A stretch of 64,000 nt of DNA from Psychromonas sp. MME1 (GTDB lineage: Bacteria; Pseudomonadota; Gammaproteobacteria; Enterobacterales; Psychromonadaceae): the NCBI RefSeq assembly GCF_041080865.1, contig NZ_CP160906.1, positions 2,728,001-2,792,000 on the forward strand. Direction: 5' to 3'. Below the pieces are notes generated by a model. The model was given only the letters and a program-made list of their open reading frames with translations. It did no database searches and was not told the origin of the DNA. A program made the position numbers and the translations under genes. How positions within the stretch are numbered: position 1 is the stretch's first letter; every line of letters starts with the position of its first letter. This document shows positions 16,940 to 37,576 of the stretch, piece by piece.

Positions 16940-17088
16940 ACCTATATGGGGAATCATATTGTGGTCATCGCTTATTGAGAAAAAATGAGGGAGCAAACTG
17001 TATGATTGAGTAATAGCCGAATTACAATTGAATACAACGCAGCTATCTTTACCCATGTTACCTCAAGATATTATGCAGATTGCGATTA
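16940..17088 (+). repeat. MITE-like element, copy A
   Basis: About 150 bases that align with copy B (37386-37542) across most of their length, sharing for example TGATTGAGTAATAGC and the right end ATTATGCAGATTGCGATTA. The terminal repeats are more decayed than in copy B. The right end overlaps the stop codon of scsD. No coding capacity. Confidence 0.6.
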
Positions 17089-26794: not shown

Positions 26795-26927
26795 ACTTTG
26801 CGATTTCCTAAATAGAGTGGACGAGAAAAGATATAAGGTTACCGTTTAGCCATAACAAACACCACCAAATAGGTCATTTAGGTAATATAAACGTCATATA
26901 CTTCCTCTATAGTCACGTTTAATGATT

Positions 26928-27089
26928 ATACCAATTCCGATAAATAGCTGATCTATTTTACTGGTTAAAACAACTTACTGCTGCGTTGTAATTTTCGTAA
27001 AGGGAATAACCATTTACGGCAAATTACGCCTTGAATTAAGCTGTTTTTCCTGCGCAAAATTTAGATCACATACTTACCGGAATTGGTAT
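26928..27089 (-). repeat. MITE-like element, copy C (inverted)
   Basis: A 162-base element with 16-base terminal inverted repeats ATACCAATTCCGATAA and TTACCGGAATTGGTAT (15 of 16 pair). Read on the minus strand it aligns with the right half of copy B, for example TTTTAACCAGTAAAATAG against TTTTGACCAACAAGATAG. It shares ACAACGCAG with copy A. No ORF. It sits just upstream of the GDPD gene. Confidence 0.75.
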
Positions 27090-27132
27090 TAACCATTAAA
27101 CGTGTATTCATCTTTATAAAGGAACAATAAAA

Positions 27133-28347
27133 ATGAAAAAAATAGCTACAGGTATGCTCGCAATAACACTTGGGTTAGGTGTCAGCTCTACATGGGCACA
27201 AGAGCCTATATCCTTAGGCGTTCGTCCTCTGTTTTTAATTGATGCTATGGTCGCAAGCCCCTTAAAAACAAAATTATCTCAGTGCCGTAATGAACGCTTC
27301 CAACGAAGCGATTTCTCTATTGCGCATCGTGGCGCACCATTACTGTTTCCGGAACATACCAAAGAATCCTATCTTGCGGCAATTCGCAGTGGTGCTGGCA
27401 TCGTCGAATGTGACGTTACTTTCACTAAAGATAAAGAACTGGTTTGTCGCCATTCTCAAAGTGACCTTCATACCACAACGGATGTCCTTGCCCACCCAGA
27501 ACTAGCCAAAAAATGTACAGTACCTTTTACACCAGCCGATCCAGCGACAGGGAAAGAGGCACAAGTTGAATGCAGAACATCCGATTTTACCTTAGCAGAG
27601 TTTAAATCATTAAAAGGGAAAATGGATGGCGCCAACCCGATGGCGACAAGCGTAGAAGAATATATGCGCGGAACACCAAGTTGGAGAAGCGATCTTTATG
27701 CAACGACGGGCACTCTGATGACGCATGCAGAAAGTGCAGCACTGTTCAAAGCACATGGCGTTAAAGTCACACCAGAACTGAAATCTGCCTCAGTTAATAT
27801 GCCCTACGAGGGCTTCACTCAGGAGATGTATGCACAAAAATTAGTGAAGGAGTTAAAAGAGGCGGGCTTCACTGCTGAAGAGAGTTATTTGCAATCATTT
27901 AACCTCGATGACATAAAATATTGGATAGCCAATAATCCCAATTTTGCTAAACAGGCTGTTTATTTAGATGAACGCATGTATGAAGATCAGAACTTTAAGG
28001 CATCACTTAAAGATATGCAGTCGCTTGCTAAAGCTGGCGTAAAAATTATAGCACCGCCCATCTATGCGCTGCTAACGTTAAATAGCCAAGGTAATATCGT
28101 TCCCTCTGACTATGCGAAATATGCTAAACAAGCTGGGCTAGATATTATTACTTGGTCGCTTGAGCGTTCAGGCCCATTAGCTCAAGGCGGGGGTTGGTAC
28201 TACCAAAGCGTCGCTGAGGCTATTAATAATGATGGCGACACCATGGTCGTACTCGATGTATTAGCAAAACAAGTCGGCGTGATTGGTGTCTTTAGTGATT
28301 GGCCAGCAACGGTCACATACTATGCAAACTGCATGGGAATGAAATAA
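27133..28347 (+). CDS. Periplasmic glycerophosphodiester phosphodiesterase
   Basis: A 404-residue GlpQ-like enzyme that splits glycerophosphodiesters to glycerol-3-phosphate and an alcohol, giving phosphate and carbon. Signal peptide at 1-22. The active site is clear: His65-Arg66-Gly (AHRGA), Glu92 and Asp94 (VECDV), and His107 (CRHS). The spaced cysteines (residues 51, 106 and beyond) suggest disulfides. It is longer than E. coli GlpQ (358) because of inserts after the active-site start. AAGGA precedes the ATG. The MITE-like copy C lies 43 bases upstream and may carry or disturb its promoter. Confidence 0.9.
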
Positions 28348-28402
28348 CAGCTCAGAAAAATATCACTTCAGACATTTCCATAATAATAGTTTAGTGAAAA
28401 CA

Positions 28403-28433
28403 GCGTGACAAGATTAAACAAATCTTGGCACGC
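28403..28433. terminator. Hairpin between convergent genes
   Basis: GCGTG-CAAGATT and AATCTTG-CACGC pair around a short AAAC loop with one A/G mismatch. It sits between the GDPD gene and the convergent PLP enzyme, without a T-run. Confidence 0.5.
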
Positions 28434-28444
28434 GACTTCTACCA

Positions 28445-29500
28445 TTAATCAGCAAAGAAAGTTATTAACTGTGTTTGATAAGGGCGAATATCACCAATGT
28501 TTTCTGCCACCCAGTCAGGGTCAAAATAACTATTTAAATAGCGGTCCCCCTGATCACATAACAAGGTCACAATTGAACCAGACTTCCCCTTAGCAGCCAT
28601 CTGTTTTGCTAATTGCAACACTCCAACCATGTTAGTGCCCGTACTTGGCCCGACCTTTCGACCTAACACCGTTTCTAACCAGAGCATCGTCGCCACCGAC
28701 TCAACATCCGGGACTTTAATCATATGATCAATGACCGAGGAGATAAATGAGGGCTCAACTCGTGGGCGACCAATACCTTCGATATGGCTGCATGAGGAGA
28801 TGACTAGCTGCTTATCGGCACCGTGAAAATAGTCATAAAATACCGAATCTTGTGGGTCAACAACGGTTAATTCTGTGGGCAATTGATGATAACGAATGTA
28901 ACGCCCAATAGTGGCACTGGTTCCCCCTGTGCCGGCACTCATGACGATATGCTTAGGAATCGGATGCTCCTCTAATTTCATCTGCATAAAAATAGAATCG
29001 GCAATATTATTATTGCCACGCCAATCGGTTGCACGCTCTGCATAGGTAAATTGATCCATATAATAACCATTCATCTGCTTCGCCAAACGTTCCGATTCAG
29101 CGTAGATCATCTCCGTGGAATCAACCAGAAAACATTCTCCTGAATAATTTGTTATCTGCGCTATTTTTTCTTTACTGGTGTTTTTAGCCATCACAGCAAT
29201 AAACTTTAACCCAAGTAAACGGGCAAAATAGGCTTCGGAAATCGCAGTACTTCCCGATGAAGCCTCAATAATAGTGGTATTTTCTCTGATATTGCCATTG
29301 CATAATGCGTATAAGAACAGCGATCGCGCCAAACGATGCTTGAGGCTTCCCGTTGGATGTGTGCTTTCATCTTTAAGATAGATATCAATACCTTGAAAAC
29401 GGTTTAAATCTAGTTTAATTAAATGGGTATCAGCACTGCGTTGGTAATCAGCTTGAATCTTGGCGATCGCTTGATCGACCCAGTTACGTTGTTCATTCAT
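28445..29500 (-). CDS. PLP-dependent cysteine synthase/desulfhydrase family enzyme
   Basis: A fold-type II PLP enzyme of about 351 residues. The PLP lysine is in TGSLKHRLA at about 49-57, the substrate loop is EASSGSTAISE and the phosphate-binding loop is SAGTGGTSATIGRY. The family includes the desulfhydrase Cds1, which breaks cysteine to pyruvate, sulfide and ammonia, as well as synthase-like members. It is transcribed divergently from an Lrp gene, the arrangement of cysteine-detoxification genes controlled by DecR/CyuR-type regulators, which favours a desulfhydrase. The ATG at 29500 is preceded by AAGGA; an upstream ATG at 29539 has no site. Exact reaction not proved. Confidence 0.85.
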   Translation of the reverse strand: MNEQRNWVDQAIAKIQADYQRSADTHLIKLDLNRFQGIDIYLKDESTHPTGSLKHRLARSLFLYALCNGNIRENTTIIEASSGSTAISEAYFARLLGLKFIAVMAKNTSKEKIAQITNYSGECFLVDSTEMIYAESERLAKQMNGYYMDQFTYAERATDWRGNNNIADSIFMQMKLEEHPIPKHIVMSAGTGGTSATIGRYIRYHQLPTELTVVDPQDSVFYDYFHGADKQLVISSCSHIEGIGRPRVEPSFISSVIDHMIKVPDVESVATMLWLETVLGRKVGPSTGTNMVGVLQLAKQMAAKGKSGSIVTLLCDQGDRYLNSYFDPDWVAENIGDIRPYQTQLITFFAD

Positions 29501-29655
29501 TTGCAAAGATCCTTTTATAAGAATCACTACCATAACCAAACTGCAGTAGAAATAGTTTCCTGAACCATCATTAGTTTTTGCTTTGAAAGAAAATTAACCT
29601 TAATATTCACAATAATAAGAAAATTTATCTTTTATATAAAAATAATGAGGTAACT

Positions 29656-30117
29656 ATGCCTATTGATCAGGTAGACAAACAAATTTTAACCTTATTACAA
29701 AAGGATGCGTCCTTATCTTTACAGCAAATTTCTGAGCAGTTAAACATAACCACAACGCCCTGCTGGAATCGCATTAAACGGCTTGAAAAAGATGGTTTTA
29801 TTCGCCAACGCGTGGCGTTATTGGATGCGCAAAAGTTGGGCTTACAACTGATTGCCTTTGTGCAGATAAAAACCCAGCAACATTCAGAGGCTTGGTTAAA
29901 ACACTTTGTCTTACAGGTAAAGGATTTTACCCCCGTTTTAGAATTTTACCGCATGACGGGGGAGTACGATTACCTGCTTAAGGTCTTAGTCACCGACATG
30001 GGCAGCTTTGATAAGTTTTACAAAAAGTTAGTCAATAATGTCAGCGGCCTAACCGATGTTAACTCTAGCTTTGCCATGGAACAGCTAAAATACACGACCG
30101 AGCTGCCATTACCGTAG
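29656..30117 (+). CDS. Lrp/AsnC family regulator (DecR/CyuR-like)
   Basis: A 153-residue regulator with an N-terminal helix-turn-helix (LSLQQISEQLNITTTPCWNRIKRLEKDGFI at about 19-48) and a C-terminal RAM ligand-binding domain with YDYLLKVLVTDM. The TPCWNRIKRLE pattern is typical of the DecR (YbaO) branch, which senses L-cysteine and activates a desulfhydrase. It sits divergently next to a cysteine-desulfhydrase-like gene, so control of that gene is the obvious inference. AATGAGG precedes the ATG. Confidence 0.85.
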   Translation: MPIDQVDKQILTLLQKDASLSLQQISEQLNITTTPCWNRIKRLEKDGFIRQRVALLDAQKLGLQLIAFVQIKTQQHSEAWLKHFVLQVKDFTPVLEFYRMTGEYDYLLKVLVTDMGSFDKFYKKLVNNVSGLTDVNSSFAMEQLKYTTELPLP

Positions 30118-30125
30118 CGATGGCA
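30104..30125. terminator. Hairpin between Lrp and cupin genes
   Basis: TGCCAT and ATGGCA pair around a 10-base loop across the Lrp stop codon. Probably a weak bidirectional terminator. Confidence 0.4.
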
Positions 30126-30127
30126 AC

Positions 30128-30619
30128 CTACTCTGACACCTTCGCAGAGACCACGATAAATCGAGCGCCATTTTCACCCGCTTGTACGAAATGATGCTCG
30201 CCAGGTTGAATTAAATGGGTATCACCGGGATAAATTGTTTGCTCAACGGTTACCCCCTGTTTATCTATCAACTGAATGAATAACTGCCCTTCTAATAGGT
30301 AATAAATCTCTTCGGTATCAATGTGTTCATGCAAACCAACACTGGCATTCGGCGCTAAACTCGAATCCATAAACAGCTCAATACTACTTTTAAGGAGGTT
30401 TTCTTGCTTATCTGGTTGCTCGTTGTACAACCACTTCCCGACTAGGTCACCAGCTCCCTGCAAACCAGCGGGCGCCAAAGGATTACTATGGGCAGGCGAA
30501 TAAAGGACATTGGCAATGCCCTCTTTTACTTTAAAGGCTTGGCTCGTTGTCGCACTCGACTCACTGTAAACGGGCGTATCACCATGATGGAATGCCTGTT
30601 CCGTTAAAATTTTTACCAT
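30128..30619 (-). CDS. Cupin domain protein
   Basis: A protein of about 163 residues with one cupin barrel in its second half. The metal-binding motifs are GLHEHIDTEEIYYLLEG at about 94-110 and GDTHLIQPGEHH at about 130-141, giving three His and a Glu for iron, zinc or manganese. The enzyme or sensor role is unknown. The longer frame from a TTG at 30640 is less likely; GAGGA lies 10 bases before the ATG at 30619. It lies just downstream of the Bcr-like pump on the same strand, so they may share a transcript. Confidence 0.85.
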   Translation of the reverse strand: MVKILTEQAFHHGDTPVYSESSATTSQAFKVKEGIANVLYSPAHSNPLAPAGLQGAGDLVGKWLYNEQPDKQENLLKSSIELFMDSSLAPNASVGLHEHIDTEEIYYLLEGQLFIQLIDKQGVTVEQTIYPGDTHLIQPGEHHFVQAGENGARFIVVSAKVSE

Positions 30620-30665
30620 TTTATAATTTTCCTCATACAAACAACGACGAACATATGATGTTCAC

Positions 30666-31832
30666 CTACTCATTGCCGCTATTATTGGGCCGAGTTAAGA
30701 GTAAACCGTTAGCAATTAAAGAGAGGCCAAGCATCACCAGAACAGCTGGCCAGAGTGTACCATTATATAATAGGGTCGATAATCCACCAGCGAGTGCCGC
30801 CATTAAAAATTGACTCGCGCCACACAATGCAGAAGCCGATCCCGTATGTTCATGGAAATGGCTAATATAAACAGCATTTGAATTCGCAGAAATAGCGCCT
30901 TGTGCACCAATAATGAAAATAATATTAATGGCAACAGCTGCCACGGGAGCATTGAATATCACCATCAACACTAATAAACAGAGCCCAGTCAGTTGGATCC
31001 AAAGACCCTGTTGCAATAGCGTCATGGCCGATATATGGTTCAAACGGAAGTTATTATAGCGATTAAAAATAGCCATCATAATAACATTGGCACTAAAAAG
31101 CAGAGCAAACAGCGCATCACTCAGGGCAAAGTACTTTTGGTAGATAAAAGAAGCATTGGTAACAAACACCAGCATCACAGAAAATGAACATCCCTGCGCA
31201 ACCAAATAACGCATCCCTTCTCGATTGGCAACCACCAAGCGATAACGACGTAAAAATGATGTGTTTGCTGTCTTTGATGAAGCATCCTTAGCGAGCTTAA
31301 AGTGTGAAATTGAAACAACAAAAAGCGCATAAATGAACAGAAAAAAGAAGATACTCTGCCAACCAAATAAATAAATAAGCAGCACCCCAACACTCGGAGC
31401 GATAGCCGGTGCAACAACAATAATCAAACCGATTAAAGAGAACAGCTTAGCCGCTTCATTACCCGTCGCTCGCTCACGCACCAAGGGGGCAATACAGACC
31501 ATGGCAAAGCCACCACCAATAGCCTGTATTACACGACTAACTTGTACCACTAAGAGGCTATGAGTAAGGGCAATGATCAGACTACAAGCAGCAAATAGCA
31601 GTAAGCCAACCAATATTAAATGACGCTTACCATAATTATCTGCAAGCGGACCACCAACTAGCTGCCCTGTCGCCAATCCTAATACATATAAACTAATCGT
31701 TGTTGCGATTTGCTCTGAACTTACAGTAAAAAAATCAGCCATGTAGGGGATGGCGGGTAAGTAAGCATCAATAGCAAATGGCGTTGCTGCCACAATCAAC
31801 GCCATAATTAAAGCAAATTTACTGTTGGACAT
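30666..31832 (-). CDS. Bcr/CflA-type MFS drug exporter
   Basis: A 388-residue, 12-helix major facilitator of the Bcr/CflA (DHA1) group. Helix 1 is ALIVAATPFAIDAYLPAIP; the conserved loop 2-3 has LADNYGKRHL, and ALTHSLLVVQVSRVIQAIGGG carries the group motif. Such pumps expel bicyclomycin, sulfonamides or peptides with H+. The substrate here is unknown. It lies divergent from trhO and in line with the cupin gene (25-47 bases apart). Confidence 0.88.
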   Translation of the reverse strand: MSNSKFALIMALIVAATPFAIDAYLPAIPYMADFFTVSSEQIATTISLYVLGLATGQLVGGPLADNYGKRHLILVGLLLFAACSLIIALTHSLLVVQVSRVIQAIGGGFAMVCIAPLVRERATGNEAAKLFSLIGLIIVVAPAIAPSVGVLLIYLFGWQSIFFFLFIYALFVVSISHFKLAKDASSKTANTSFLRRYRLVVANREGMRYLVAQGCSFSVMLVFVTNASFIYQKYFALSDALFALLFSANVIMMAIFNRYNNFRLNHISAMTLLQQGLWIQLTGLCLLVLMVIFNAPVAAVAINIIFIIGAQGAISANSNAVYISHFHEHTGSASALCGASQFLMAALAGGLSTLLYNGTLWPAVLVMLGLSLIANGLLLTRPNNSGNE

Positions 31833-32063
31833 GGTCTCTCGATAATTTATCTATTAATCTTTTAATTTAGCACCAATATTCACAAAAAGCAGTTCCCTTC
31901 TACTCGTGGTAAAGTTTATTTCCGCGTTGTTTATTTTGTCACCGCCAAAGTTGCTAAATTGTTAACAAATTAACATTGCGGTAACCGTTTTTTCTCAACT
32001 ATAATGCCATTCACATAAAATAACGCACTGGATTTACGCTCCAGTTAGCTGCAAGGAAGTCCC

Positions 32064-33044
32064 ATGTCAAATACCATCGTCTGTGCACTGTATCGATTTG
32101 TCGCACTTGAAAATTATCAAGAAATCCAACAACCGCTTTTAGCTATAATGATGGCAAACCAAATTAAGGGAACGTTACTACTTGCCAATGAAGGGATTAA
32201 CGGCACCATCGCAGGCAGTCGAGAAGGGGTTGATAAGCTAATGAATTGGCTAAAATCAGACCCACGCTTTGCCGATATCAGCTGTAAAGAGTCATTCAGC
32301 GAAGAAAATCCTTTCTATCGCACTAAGGTAAAACTTAAAAAAGAAATTGTGACGATGGGCGTTGCAGGAATTGACCCGAATCGCGTGGTCGGCAGTTATG
32401 TACAGGCGAAAGACTGGAATGCCCTGATCAGCGATCCTGAGGTATTACTGGTTGATACACGCAACGACTATGAAATTAGTATCGGCACATTTAGAAATGC
32501 AGTGGATCCGAAAACCACTAATTTTCGTGAATTCCCCGACTATGTCAAACACAATTTAGATCCTGCTAAGCATAAAAAAGTAGCGATGTTTTGTACCGGT
32601 GGCATTCGTTGTGAAAAATCAACGGCCTACTTAAAAGAGCAAGGCTTTGACGAAGTTTATCATCTACAGGGCGGGGTATTAAAATACCTAGAAGAGATAC
32701 CACAAGAAGAAAGTCTCTGGCAAGGAGAATGTTTTGTCTTTGATAATCGAGTTTCAGTCAATCACCAGCTGGAAAAAGGTCAGTACGACCAATGCCATGG
32801 TTGCCGGTTACCGATTAGCGCTACGGACAAACAATCCGATAAATACATACCGGGTATCGCCTGTCCGCACTGTTATGGCCAGCTCAGTGATCAGCAAAAG
32901 CTGCGTTTTAGCGAACGTGAAAAACAGATAGCTTTAGCTAAGCTACGTGGCGAGGCACATATCGGTACTGACGCCGCAGAACAAATACACAATAACCGTG
33001 CAAAAAAACAGTTAAACAAACAAAAGCAACGTATTGCTAAATAA
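32064..33044 (+). CDS. trhO: tRNA uridine(34) hydroxylase
   Basis: TrhO (YceA) adds a hydroxyl group to uridine 34 of tRNA with oxygen, the first step to 5-methoxyuridine/5-oxyacetyluridine. The 326-residue protein has a ferredoxin-like N-domain ([17 protein letters not shown] at about 40-56) and a rhodanese domain with the catalytic Cys177 in [13 protein letters not shown]-terminal Cys cluster ([12 protein letters not shown]) follows. AAGGAAG precedes the ATG. Stands alone, with a hairpin after it. Confidence 0.95.
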
Positions 33045-33049
33045 AAGCA

Positions 33050-33083
33050 CGATTAACAGGACGAAATATCGTCCTGTTAATCG
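33050..33083. terminator. Perfect 15-bp hairpin between trhO and the pentapeptide gene
   Basis: CGATTAACAGGACGA pairs exactly with its reverse complement around AATA, overlapping the stop codon of the convergent pentapeptide gene. Likely a bidirectional terminator, although no long T-run follows. Confidence 0.7.
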
Positions 33084-33679
33084 ACTAATTCAATCCCCAA
33101 TGAAGTAAGCAATTCTAAGGCTTCAAAACGGCTAAACTTAGCGCCTTTAACTCTATTTAGCGTGACATCAATCTGATAATTTGTCGCATTACTAAAATCG
33201 ACTCCATCGAGATTCGTACGCATAAACTGGCTATAGGAAAAATCACTGTCAGTGAAATTTGCATAGGCAAAATCTCCCTCTCTAAAATCGACATCATGTG
33301 CTTTGCAGCCCTGAATTTCCATCTCTTGCAAAGTAAGACCAAAGAAGGAACTGTCATTGATAATGCACTGCTGAAACTTGATAGAGGTCGTTAAGCTATA
33401 ATTAGGCCAAACTGCTTTTGCCCAATTAATACCAATGACCTTACTCTCTTGAAAACAGACATCGGCAAATCGGCTTGCGAGAATTTTCATATTTGATAAA
33501 TTACTTTTGATAAAGCGACAATCAATAAATTTGCAACTTTTCACCATCACATCGCTAAAATTACACTCTGTAAAGGTGCAATTTTCAAAAATCACCTCTT
33601 CTATCTGTTGCTGAGATAAATCCAGCCCCAAAAAATCCTGCTGGTAATATTCCTTTATGTCACGATTTAACTTATCCAT
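33077..33679 (-). CDS. Pentapeptide repeat protein (McbG/Qnr-like)
   Basis: A 200-residue right-handed beta-helix protein. Repeats of the A-(D/N)-L/F-x-x form run from about residue 28 to 180, for example CTFTECNF, SCKFIDCRFIKSNL and GDFAYANFTDSDFSYSQF, with a break at about 82-95 (NWAKAVWPNYSL), as in DNA-mimic Qnr and McbG proteins that protect gyrase. No signal peptide. Whether it affects quinolone sensitivity is not known. In line with aas, 16 bases after it. Confidence 0.88.
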   Translation of the reverse strand: MDKLNRDIKEYYQQDFLGLDLSQQQIEEVIFENCTFTECNFSDVMVKSCKFIDCRFIKSNLSNMKILASRFADVCFQESKVIGINWAKAVWPNYSLTTSIKFQQCIINDSSFFGLTLQEMEIQGCKAHDVDFREGDFAYANFTDSDFSYSQFMRTNLDGVDFSNATNYQIDVTLNRVKGAKFSRFEALELLTSLGIELVD

Positions 33680-33695
33680 TTTTTTCCTAGCCGTT

Positions 33696-36600
33696 TTAAC
33701 CTGCGTTAATCATCTCTAAAGCCAATCGTTTCGATTGGCTAAAATCCGTTTTTCCCGATCCGAGTTTGGGAATGGCTTCCACCTGATACCAACGTTTTGG
33801 CACCATCAAGGGATTACAGCCCTGCGCTAACATACTTTTTCTTACTTCACGGCTATCCAATTCGCCTTGATAAAGAAGGATAATACTTTCTCCTTTTTGC
33901 GGATCAGCAATCGCGACCGCGACAACTTCGACCTCTTCATCGAAATCTTTTAATACCGCTAGCTCAATCGCACTCAAACTAATCATCTCCCCCCCAAGTT
34001 TAGCAAAGCGAGAGTAGCGATCTAGTATAGTTAAAAATCCATCACTGTCTAAACGCCCTTTATCACCCGAGAGATACCAACGTTCGCCATTAATATCTTT
34101 AATTACCTGTTCTGTTTTTTCAGGATTATTGAGGTAACCCAACATGATCTGTGCCCCACCAATTAGGATCAAGCCCTCCCCTCCCGTGGGTAACTCAATA
34201 AACGTATCGGGATCGACAATCTTAAAACTCGTTCCTGGTAATGGCATCCCCACGGTTCCCTCTTTTGTGCCAACCTGAATTTGCCAGGTTTTTTTATCCA
34301 GCATGTCAGGTAAATTAACACTGGCAACGGGCGTTGTTTCGGTGGTGCCATATCCCTCTAATATATTTTTATTAAATTTACTCTCAAAGGCATTTTTAAC
34401 CTGTGTATTGAGTTTTTCAGCCCCTGCAACCACAAAACGCAAAGAATCAAACATCAATGGACTGAGCTTTTTATTATTGCTATATAAACGGAAAAAAGTC
34501 GATGTTCCACAAATAATTGTTACGTTATTTTTAGCGACGGCTTGACCAATGCCAAGCGCATCGGTTGGGTCTGCATGGCACACTAAGGCAATCCCTTCAA
34601 TTAAAGGTAAAAACTGTGTGACGGTTAACCCAAAGGCATGAAATAGAGGTAGAGAGCCCATGATCACATCACTCTCTTGCGTATTTAGCACATCGGAAAC
34701 TTGTTGTAAGTTAGCCATAATATTAGTATGGCTGAGCATGACCCCCTTAGGTGAGCCTTCACTACCACTGGAAAATAAGATTGCGGCTGCCTGTTCATTG
34801 TCTACATGTTTAACGTAAAGTTGTTTTAATACCTTAGCGGGCAGCAGTTTAACCAAGATTAAACGGATAATTTGCTGGCTTTTCCTAATCTCCTTCATGA
34901 CATCTTCGAGATAAATAACGTCAACATCGGCGAATGTTGCAGTTAAATCGATACCGCGTTGTTGTAATTTATGCAAAAAAACGCGGGAACTATAAACCTT
35001 AGCCAGCTGCGCTTGTGCAATGGCATCTAATAACGCCTCATGACTTGCCGTATAGTTCAAATTAACAATGGTTTTACCCGCCAGAATGGTCGCCATATTG
35101 GCAATCACCCCACCCGCACTGTTAGGTAATAACATCCCAACATTTTGGCCTTTATTACCCTTTTGAATCACCTTACTGAGGCTAATTGCGCCAACTAGTG
35201 TACGTTTGCTGATAATTTTTTACCCGTACTATCTGTCACTGCGCGTTGACTGCCAAGACGCTTTACCGTATCAATCCATGCACAACCAAGGCTCTGCAGC
35301 TCGTTGGCATGAGTTTTCCATGACTTTACTGAAAGGTCAAAAACACAGCGTTTAACCTGTTCCGCATTACTTTCTTTCGTCATTTCTTGACCAAAAGCGA
35401 TCACCAAATCCCGAAACAGCGCGCGTCTACGCACCTCCTTTAGGTTAGTAGAAGAGTGGCTAAATTTACTACCCCATAATCCGCGCATATAAAAAGGCAC
35501 AATCACGATATCGCACTGAGTATGGCTACATACGGTTTCAAAATCTTTTTTAAACTCACCAAGATGCCCATTGCGACTCATTGTCCCCTCGGGAAACAAA
35601 GCCACGACCTCACCTTGGTCGAGTACTTTTGCAATATCGAGTAACGATTGCGGCGTGATATTAAGCATATTAACGGGAATACAGCCAAGCAACTTAAAAA
35701 ACCAACCTAAATACCAACGGGCAAACACTTTTTCATCCATGGCAAAGCGCACCGTACGAGGACATGCAATTTGCAACACTGCCCAATCTATCCAACTCAC
35801 ATGATTACCAAGTAGCAAGACACCGCCCTGTTCGGGTACGTGTTGCATACCTTGAATTGAGACCTTATAGCGACGTGCAATCGACCAATTGAGCACAATT
35901 CTTGCCAAACTTTGTGGGAATTTATAAATCGTATATAGGCTACCAACGAGGGCAAAAATCGCAGTAAAAGTGAATAAAATAGCACTATCAATACCATAAT
36001 AGGCAAAACCTGCAGTGACCAATATAACCATCACCATACAGATCCCCTGCACCCAATTACTCAGCCCTAACACCCTTCCCATTTCATTCTTTTTCGCATG
36101 AAATTGAATCAAGGCATTGAGAGGAATAATAAAGAGTCCACCCATCATACCGACCAAGAAAAAACAGACCGTTTGAGCAAAAGCCGACTCCATAAAAGGC
36201 AAAAACCACAGTGTCATTGCAAAGCCTATTGCGCCAAGGGGCACCAAACCCGTTTCAATATGATTTTTTGAATAACGCCCAGCTATCCACGACCCAATAA
36301 CCATTCCCAAACCCGAGGTGATAATGACCGCCTGAATAACTAAGGCGCTGGTAATCGACAAATTTTCTTTTGCATAAGCGGGAAAGCTAGCTAATAACAG
36401 CTGCGTAATCGACCAGAACATCGCCAAACCAATAATCGACAGATGAATAATCGGCTGCGAAGTAAAGATCGCTACATTACGTTTAAAATACCCCGCTGTT
36501 CGGTATTTTTTCCAATCAAAGGTCTCTTTATATGGCGCCTTTTGCACATTAGGTAAACGATAAGCCATCCATAACTCGAACAATGCGTTGCATACTAATA

Positions 36601-37159
36601 ACCATGCAAGAGGCGCCATTGATTGTAAAATTTGTTCTGGGGTAAGCGATTCTGGTTGATAAAATGATTCAAATAAAGAGGCGAAGATGAGCATGCTCGC
36701 CAACACGGCAATAATAGAAACGGACTGCACTAACGCATTAGCTTGCGCCAAATTCTCTCGACCAAATAAAGGTTTAATATAACCGTATTTTGCCGGCGAA
36801 TAAAAAGCGGACTGCACTGCCAGTAAAAAAGCAATCACAAAGGCTTGCCAAAATAGCCCTTGGTAATAACAAAAAGCAATTGCAAGACTCAATGCCACGG
36901 AGCACCAAGCACTGACGACCATCACCCTATTTTTGGGGTATCTATCGGAGATAAACCCCGTGGGTGACAATAATAAAATAAATGGGAGGAGGATAAGACC
37001 GTTGATCAAAGCCATTAAAAGGATTTGCTGTTCACCGTGAAAGGCTTTAAAAATAGTATTTTGAATAACTATCTTATGTCCGAACTCAATAAAAACATTC
37101 AAAAAAATGGCAAATAGGTACGGCCAGAAACCTCTGATGTTGGCTAATTTTTGCATCAC
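33696..37159 (-). pseudogene. aas: Trifunctional Aas-type lysophospholipid acyltransferase, frameshifted
   Basis: Two frames together form a fused protein of about 1150 residues: an LplT-like MFS transporter (about 1-420), a PlsC acyltransferase with NHVSWID and FPEGTMSR, and an AMP-binding acyl-ACP ligase with LFSSGSEGSPKGV and the later SGDKGRLDSDG. This architecture is known from marine gammaproteobacteria and recycles lysophosphatidylethanolamine in the inner membrane. The first frame stops at 35195 after KKLSANVH. The second reads KRTLVGAISLSKVIQKGNKGQNVGM. One base appears missing at about 35203-35210 (GCAAACG). The missing base may be sequence error; otherwise ligase and acyltransferase are two chains. 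Confidence 0.83.
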
Positions 37160-37385
37160 GAATTACCTTTAGTCTATGTGATTACGAGTCGTTGGGGGAG
37201 ATTATAAAACGCTGTAATAATAGACCTGTTATTAATTAAAAGACAAAGCACAGTTTTATCAATAATAAATAATATTAATTCACTTATTTACTCGATTAAA
37301 AAGACAACAACTAAAAAATAAGAGATAATACGCGACTATCAAAAATCCAGCTGATGAGTAAGCTTGGAGATAGGTACGTGATTTA
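37160..37385. other. Leader region upstream of aas
   Basis: About 225 AT-rich bases between the aas start and the MITE-like copy B. No ORF or hairpin seen. Confidence 0.4.
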
Positions 37386-37542
37386 TGCCAATTCGCATAA
37401 TATTATGGTCATAGCTTGTTGATGAAAAATGATATAGAGCAAGGCACATGATTGAGTAATAGCTCGCTATTACGATTGAATGTAACACTGTTATCTATTA
37501 TTTTGACCAACAAGATAGATCAGATGCTTATGCGGATTGGCA
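37386..37542 (+). repeat. MITE-like element, copy B
   Basis: A 157-base element with 15-base terminal inverted repeats TGCCAATTCGCATAA (37386-37400) and TTATGCGGATTGGCA (37528-37542), 14 of 15 pairing. It is flanked by TTA on both sides, a possible short target duplication. It aligns with copy A along most of its length. No transposase. It ends 34 bases before gmk. Confidence 0.8.
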
Positions 37543-37576
37543 TTATACTCAATAATGTTGTTAGGAATTATTATTT

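Follow-up and report, generated by a model that had tools for sequence, protein, structure and literature searches.

What moves the short repeats that lie between the genes of Psychromonas sp. MME1, and why do they carry a long hairpin? The question is raised by three repeats, named copies 1, 2 and 3 from left to right, in the window, that is the whole stretch of 64,000 nucleotides analysed here (G000:C1:2728001-2792000 of a complete genome of 3,590,786 bases). The repeats are members of a family of miniature inverted-repeat transposable elements (MITEs) of the RUP/IS630 kind. An insertion sequence (IS) of IS630 type that is found in relatives shares its ends and its target duplication with the window MITEs, and it is probably this element that moved them. 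A fuller explanation is considered likely, in which an IS630-type transposase acts in trans on MITEs whose hairpin body serves propagation, with one strand folding, and whose body and ends are modular.

The first-pass annotation had described three copies of one element with internal homology, the middle one being inverted. Copies 2 and 3 were found where it had placed them and their exact limits are given in Table 1. When compared with 500 dinucleotide shuffles, copies 1 and 3 proved homologous on the same strand (z 19.4, 102 of 129 aligned bases identical), and copy 2 resembled copy 3 best when reversed (z 6.4), in agreement with the inversion; some similarity is also seen unreversed (z 4.3) because both are near-palindromes. 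Direct comparison of copies 1 and 2 gave no homology signal (z 0.4-0.7) and their link therefore runs only via copy 3. A whole-element structure model made from relatives of copy 2 retrieved from the window copy 2 (E 2.7e-37) and, reversed, copy 3 (E 1.5e-12) but not copy 1. Copy 3 is a diverged version of the copy 2 hairpin body on the minus strand, while copy 1 has lost both its palindrome (z -1.2 against its own reverse complement) and recognisable ends.

With copy 2 as query, at least 41 places were found in the genome, a lower bound since scoring covered 40 of the 112 first-look candidates; 32 of them are 96-100% identical and nine are 84-88% identical. With copy 3 as query, about 40 places were found, the others being 74-91% identical and some being fragments of one copy. 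Genome search, homology and model results therefore lead to two related families plus one relic, and not to a single element in three copies: family A, to which copy 2 belongs, is young, family B, that of copy 3, is older, and copy 1 is a family B relic. Relatives of family A are present in 23 of the 24 genomes of the genus (E 1e-5, this genome counted) and, across the order, in 39 of 394 (E 1e-8).

The elements have the features of MITEs: they are 157-160 bp long, non-coding and present in many copies, they have terminal inverted repeats (TACCAAT-N5-TAA) and a target duplication, and their ends are common to an autonomous element that occurs in relatives. No open reading frame (ORF) of at least 80 amino acids overlaps copy 2 or copy 3, in agreement with the lack of coding capacity first annotated. 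In all 30 family A copies that were read with their flanks, T-N-A was present on both sides and the two triplets were identical in 29 (chance 0.43, p 4e-10). Three of these 30 copies are nested in other copies of the repeat; once their flanks are joined minus one triplet, the match spans the junction of an undisturbed repeat, which thus represents the empty site. In the same way, an IS lies inside a 160-bp repeat in a relative (G020, L188), and an undisturbed copy reveals the same TTA duplication.

In this relative, two ends of a 160-bp family stand 1276 bp apart and the stretch contains an IS within a repeat. Parts of its protein match DDE_3 (PF13358) and the NCBIfam IS630 transposase NF033545 (148 bits for a cut-off of 100), and the candidate driver thus encodes a DDE transposase of IS630 type, which is its likeness to the IS630 family. 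Across the order, 47 of 394 genomes contain relatives of the DDE part, as do 15 of 24 in the genus; in a collection of named organisms, 213 stretches encode one. The best 79 of these loci come from Psychromonas, Vibrio, Photobacterium, Aliivibrio, Shewanella, Parashewanella, Pseudoalteromonas, Alteromonas, Alishewanella and Colwellia as well as from metagenome-assembled genomes of Psychrobium, Thalassolituus and others. Of 104 loci that were long enough, 76 are distinct copies with both ends, 21 lack them and seven were dropped as their flanks had already been seen. The ends of the 76 copies read TACCA[A/T]T followed by a variable stretch, often TAA. A length of 1110-1112 bp (about 1.1 kb) is shared by 59 copies, and 73 contain exactly two frames of at least 90 codons. 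Among the 19 copies listed, 17 have overlapping frames and 11 have six or seven A in a row at this place, which fits programmed frameshifting as a putative mode of expression of the transposase.

The target duplication of the IS630 family is usually a 2-bp TA. That of the candidate is, unlike it, a 3-bp TNA: T-N-A flanks the IS on the left in 75 of 76 copies and on the right in 74, and both flanks are equal in 54 (chance 0.38, p 7e-9). In the 20 best alignments listed, the window MITEs resemble the IS only in the outermost 25-29 bp of either end. Outside the genus, the IS is present in seven of 17 MITE-bearing genomes while 1.5 were expected (p 2e-4). Moreover, in Pseudoalteromonas lipolytica a MITE with TACCATTCCGC ends interrupts the transposase frame of the IS, as read by eye, with TTA on both sides, and the same end variant is also carried by an IS copy of this species (L304). 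The first-pass annotation had proposed a non-autonomous family mobilised by a transposase that was not seen, and had called for further copies, for a target duplication of 2-3 bases and for a transposase with matching ends. The copy numbers, the shared ends and the duplication uphold the proposal. The transposase exists in relatives, but the genome studied here gave no match to the DDE part at E 1e-20 and none to PF13358.

According to the proposed mechanism, the IS630-type transposase would act in trans, its source being an element that the searches of this genome did not find. The transposase would bind the 28-bp ends (TACCAAT-N5-TAA-...-TGATC) and excise the element, which would be joined into a TNA triplet with duplication of the triplet. 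As for the hairpin body, it would serve propagation and not the host.

The body corresponds to the inner 105 bp and forms a long hairpin whose inner loop, TGCGTT / GCCTTG, is fixed. The family A alignment consists of 31 full-length sequences, 29 from genomes of the genus and order and two from plasmid records (Pseudoalteromonas and Vibrio). With one hairpin of 63 pairs, 148 cells are changed on both sides and still paired, compared with 52 in shuffled and 25-35 in slid alignments, the structure being derived from the sequences' own folds, which favours it on the number of cells paired. A wide set of 53 bodies across terminal types (54 sources, L364 falling under the threshold) gave 520 such cells, compared with 168 shuffled and 93-147 slid, in an alignment that was itself fitted to the structure.

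The same body occurs under other ends, and body and ends therefore appear to be separable modules. In a scan of 274 genomes of Gammaproteobacteria with ten candidates scored per genome, the whole-element model matched 23 genomes, which represent 20 of 222 genera and include this one. Among the 63 places listed outside this genome, 40 loci were fetched. By eye, TACCAA ends are missing in 36 of the 40; many loci start with GGAGCCTCTGATTAATT, GGAACCTCTGAT or GGGCACCTCTATTAATT and others have short or unique arms. A GGAGCC-type end pair was delimited by script in nine of the 40, most with nTAA-type flanks, which are equal over 4 bp in four of the nine; such flanks presumably resemble an IS5-type duplication. 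Two terminal types coexist in each of three genomes (G029, G450 and G524). A body-only model trained solely on TACCAAT-type elements found 39 of the 40 loci at E<1e-5, and a sequence-only body model found 38 at E<0.001, the next score being E 0.32. On 320 kb of other sequence, the sequence-only model recovered five of six inserted class-level loci together with genus copies and weaker matches that may be remnants. Among 398 genomes of Pseudomonadota (nine candidates scored per genome), the body model matched 22 in 13 of 212 genera, this genome counted, and six of the 22 belong to one family outside Gammaproteobacteria (f216). Named plasmid records of Halomonas, Azotobacter and Pseudomonas also contain the body. 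A bolder view, advanced only tentatively, is that the body is the selected unit, a single-stranded hairpin module (RNA or single-stranded DNA) with a fixed inner loop, which several unrelated terminal systems would carry across Gammaproteobacteria and one further class, namely IS630-like TACCAAT ends with TNA, GGAGCCTCTGATTAATT-type ends with nTAA-type flanks, and short and Pseudomonas-type arms.

In five loci from Halomonas, Azotobacter and family f186 (L367, L368, L377, L384 and L388), the body belongs to a larger arrangement in which a CCCTTCGGG-type hairpin lies upstream and other flanking sequence is similar as well. This arrangement is possibly a separate element class, and family f186 is probably Pseudomonas-like.

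Mismatches within the hairpin are not symmetrical between the strands. They were counted in the 33 of 39 wide-set pairs that have a Watson-Crick majority, where A.C is found in 93 cells and G.T in 26, an A.C on the plus strand being a G.T on the minus strand. The A.C share reaches 0.78 and exceeds the 0.59 given by column composition (0 of 1000 shuffles, p 1.4e-5). Without correction for composition, A.C and G.T number 29 vs 5 in the TACCAAT set, 29 vs 9 in the GGAGCC-like set and, more weakly, 14 vs 5 in the rest. In addition, the minus strand is the more stably folded one in 36 of the 53 bodies, with a mean of 4.8 kcal/mol. As the minus strand of the wide set tolerates G-T-type mismatches better, it is probably this strand that folds alone, and the active form would be RNA or single-stranded DNA. 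Transcription from neighbouring genes enters along the minus strand at 44 of 60 elements and along the plus strand at 31 of 59 (p 0.023), which mildly favours RNA. In attC sites and in REP/RAYT hairpins, too, one strand presumably folds and unpaired bases are conserved within variable stems.

A different picture emerges from copies settled in the genome. Twenty resident family B copies show 178 one-sided changes and 12 paired double changes (6.1 in shuffles, p 0.012), and the hairpin is therefore hardly kept after insertion. G.T and A.C are equally frequent in them (50 vs 49), so that no strand bias of mutation is seen. The stems keep their pairing by double changes between lineages and hardly in settled copies. 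Selection on the hairpin seems to act during spread and not through use by the host.

The alternative that survives best is that of an ordinary MITE whose palindrome is a by-product of template switching at replication forks, one arm copying the other, and whose body is the baggage of a long-lived family. The slight excess of double changes in resident copies speaks for it, as does copy 3, which holds two paired double changes, one of them at its own ends. It is nevertheless unlikely since it leaves unexplained the boxes of the inner loop, the strand asymmetry of the wide set and the presence of the body under other ends.

A second alternative, that the host uses the hairpin at the 3' ends of transcripts to stabilise or end mRNA, draws on the placement of the repeats and on the preference of neighbour transcription for the minus strand. 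Among 60 copies (30 of each family), none lies wholly within an ORF of more than 200 codons, 12 abut or overlap the end of an ORF, and convergent gaps (22) outnumber divergent ones (7, p 0.008), with 30 tandem gaps and one unassigned. Such placement fits equally well selection against insertion into promoters and genes. Resident family B copies also decay with few compensations and without G.T/A.C asymmetry. The suggestion of the first-pass annotation that the repeats may carry promoters or terminators gained no support either, as promoter-like sites in the regions of copies 2 and 3 number 0 and 3 (1.9 and 3.0 in shuffles) and no terminator-like site was found in either region scanned. Host use is thus held to be improbable.

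Just as little credit is given to a transposase of another type as the mover of the MITEs, although no IS630-type gene was found here beside 32 near-identical copies. PF01609 and PF13586 were the families searched as rival drivers: six PF01609 loci of this genome carry other ends and 28 PF13586 loci of the genus have no pair of MITE ends, whereas the IS630-type element has both ends and duplication. A long end pair in G020 (L187) was discarded as its interior consists of ordinary genes. Plasmid searches with MITEs, one end and wide-set elements as queries revealed no driver, and a phage search gave none.

Five of the six PF01609 loci (L081-L086) contain a common element, about 1.86 kb long and with ends near GTTGAGGCTGTAGAATTTCT, and the sixth is about 80% identical; these elements, which are taken to be IS1182-like, are unrelated to the repeats. 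In a relative, G018, many short contigs (L124, L130, L131, L133-L145) stop in the 3' part of the same IS5-type transposase gene, which points to an IS that multiplied recently and interrupts the assembly.

The remaining idea, that MITE orientation follows replication as in elements entering single-stranded DNA of the lagging strand, can practically be set aside: family A signs cluster along the chromosome, as do end patterns on G020 C1 among the places listed, but the GC skew of sampled stretches puts the origin at about 2.9 Mb and the terminus at about 1.15 Mb, and on this basis the 41 family A places split 9+/10- vs 7+/15- (p 0.35) and the idea is unsupported in this genome. Among the places listed on G020:C1, ATACCAATGGAATTAA keeps one orientation over long runs, minus from 1.03 to 1.64 Mb and plus from 1.78 to 2.46 Mb.

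Several observations weigh against the preferred explanation of MITEs moved in trans with a propagating hairpin body. Transposition was not observed, and the driver is absent from searches of the very genome with the youngest burst. The flanks are unequal in 22 of the 76 IS copies, two of which (L291 and L317) probably have mispaired ends. The end-specific match between MITEs and IS is incomplete, with the expected IS end preferred by 46 of 62 MITE ends, and the body model yields three matches next to the 79 named IS loci, one of them strong. As regards the body, the body-only model detects copy 2 and not copy 3 at E 1e-4, and the sequence-only model misses L333 and L342, as well as L325, one of the six loci of the 320-kb test. 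The 40 loci were chosen by a model that contains the body (R1), and the sequence-only test is for this reason not independent; nor are the cell counts of double changes independent, the sequences being related. In the near set A3, from which the partial L117 is excluded, the strand signal stays at the shuffle baseline (0.69 vs 0.65, p 0.39). Finally, paired double changes of residents slightly exceed shuffles and may reflect correction of one arm by the other.

The Correia/NEMIS elements of Neisseria presumably measure about 155 bp and have ends that differ from those of the Psychromonas MITEs. Like them, they are short, with terminal inverted repeats, a target duplication and hairpin-forming transcripts, for which RNase III processing and sites for IHF are reported (PMC2229807). 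IS630-moved MITEs are a known kind, represented by RUP of Streptococcus pneumoniae, a 107-bp repeat with TA-containing targets (PMC2229807). RUP, too, is short, non-coding and intergenic; its ends match IS630-Spn1, an IS630 element regarded as its likely mover, and it inserts into other mobile elements (PMC2229807). The present repeats differ in being 160 bp long, in their 3-bp TNA, in coming from marine Gammaproteobacteria and in having a body that also occurs in elements with other ends. ERIC (IRU) of E. coli and further enterobacteria is a hairpin repeat as well (PMC2229807); one body variant (L377), searched for its presence, matched none of 5,426 E. coli genomes (20,395 records). Rfam 15 gave no match in the window, and eight wider loci gave six weak matches, all below the gathering score. 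In literature searched mostly without subscription papers and ISfinder, no description was found of these ends, of a TNA duplication in an IS630-type element or of the body, which is not proof of absence.

The surroundings of the three copies are as first annotated: copy 2 lies upstream of the GDPD gene, copy 3 upstream of gmk, and copy 1 in the gap where a sodium/glutamate symporter gene converges with a thioredoxin-like gene, which is the scsD of the first-pass annotation.

Table 1. Features of the three repeats, in positions of the window.
Feature	Position	Strand	Remarks
Copy 1, family B relic	~16953..17082	-	ends and palindrome decayed; homologous stretch
Left target duplication of copy 2, TTA	26926..26928	none	
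Copy 2, family A element	26929..27088	+	160 bp, TACCAATTCCGATAA...TTACCGGAATTGGTA (TACC...GGTA); imperfect full-length hairpin
Copy 2 left terminal repeat, 28 bp	26929..26956	+	IS630-type right ends 25.5 vs left ends 23.4 (slightly favours right)
Copy 2 body (models R2, R3)	26956..27060	-	segment occurring elsewhere with other ends; minus strand probably folds
Copy 2 core box CTGCGTTG, conserved	26981..26988	+	one flank of inner loop
Copy 2 hairpin tip AAGGGAATAACCATT	27000..27014	+	form recurrent in many, not all, wide-set members
Copy 2 core box CGCCTTG, conserved	27027..27033	+	opposite flank of inner loop
Copy 2 right terminal repeat, 28 bp	27061..27088	-	IS630-type left end 32.9 vs 16.4; 25/28 in L210
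Right target duplication of copy 2, TTA	27089..27091	none	
Left TTA flank of copy 3	37383..37385	none	
Copy 3, family B element	37386..37542	-	157 bp, ends TGCCAAT.../...ATTGGCA (TGCC...GGCA)
Right TTA flank of copy 3	37543..37545	none	

Other forms of the repeat were also encountered. Composite repeats of 217, 247 and 322 bp occur in the same genome (L043, L055, L074, L075 and L078), with one element in or beside another. Two family A elements there are internally deleted with both ends kept (L071:1998-2100, 103 bp; L072:2101-2173, 73 bp). On a plasmid of Vibrio navarrensis (L097), a 70%-identical element overlaps by one base the annotated 3' end of a gene for a VCBS-domain protein.

An abundant repeat of marine bacteria is thus connected with a transposase of a named kind, whose duplication of 3 bp is unusual. 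If the body is indeed a unit of its own, it would either parasitise MITEs or be what gives them their success, for instance by engaging a factor of the host as they spread. The conservation of a hairpin body that crosses terminal types suggests that the hairpin itself is partly what multiplies, and the reason why bacterial MITEs have long hairpins becomes testable.

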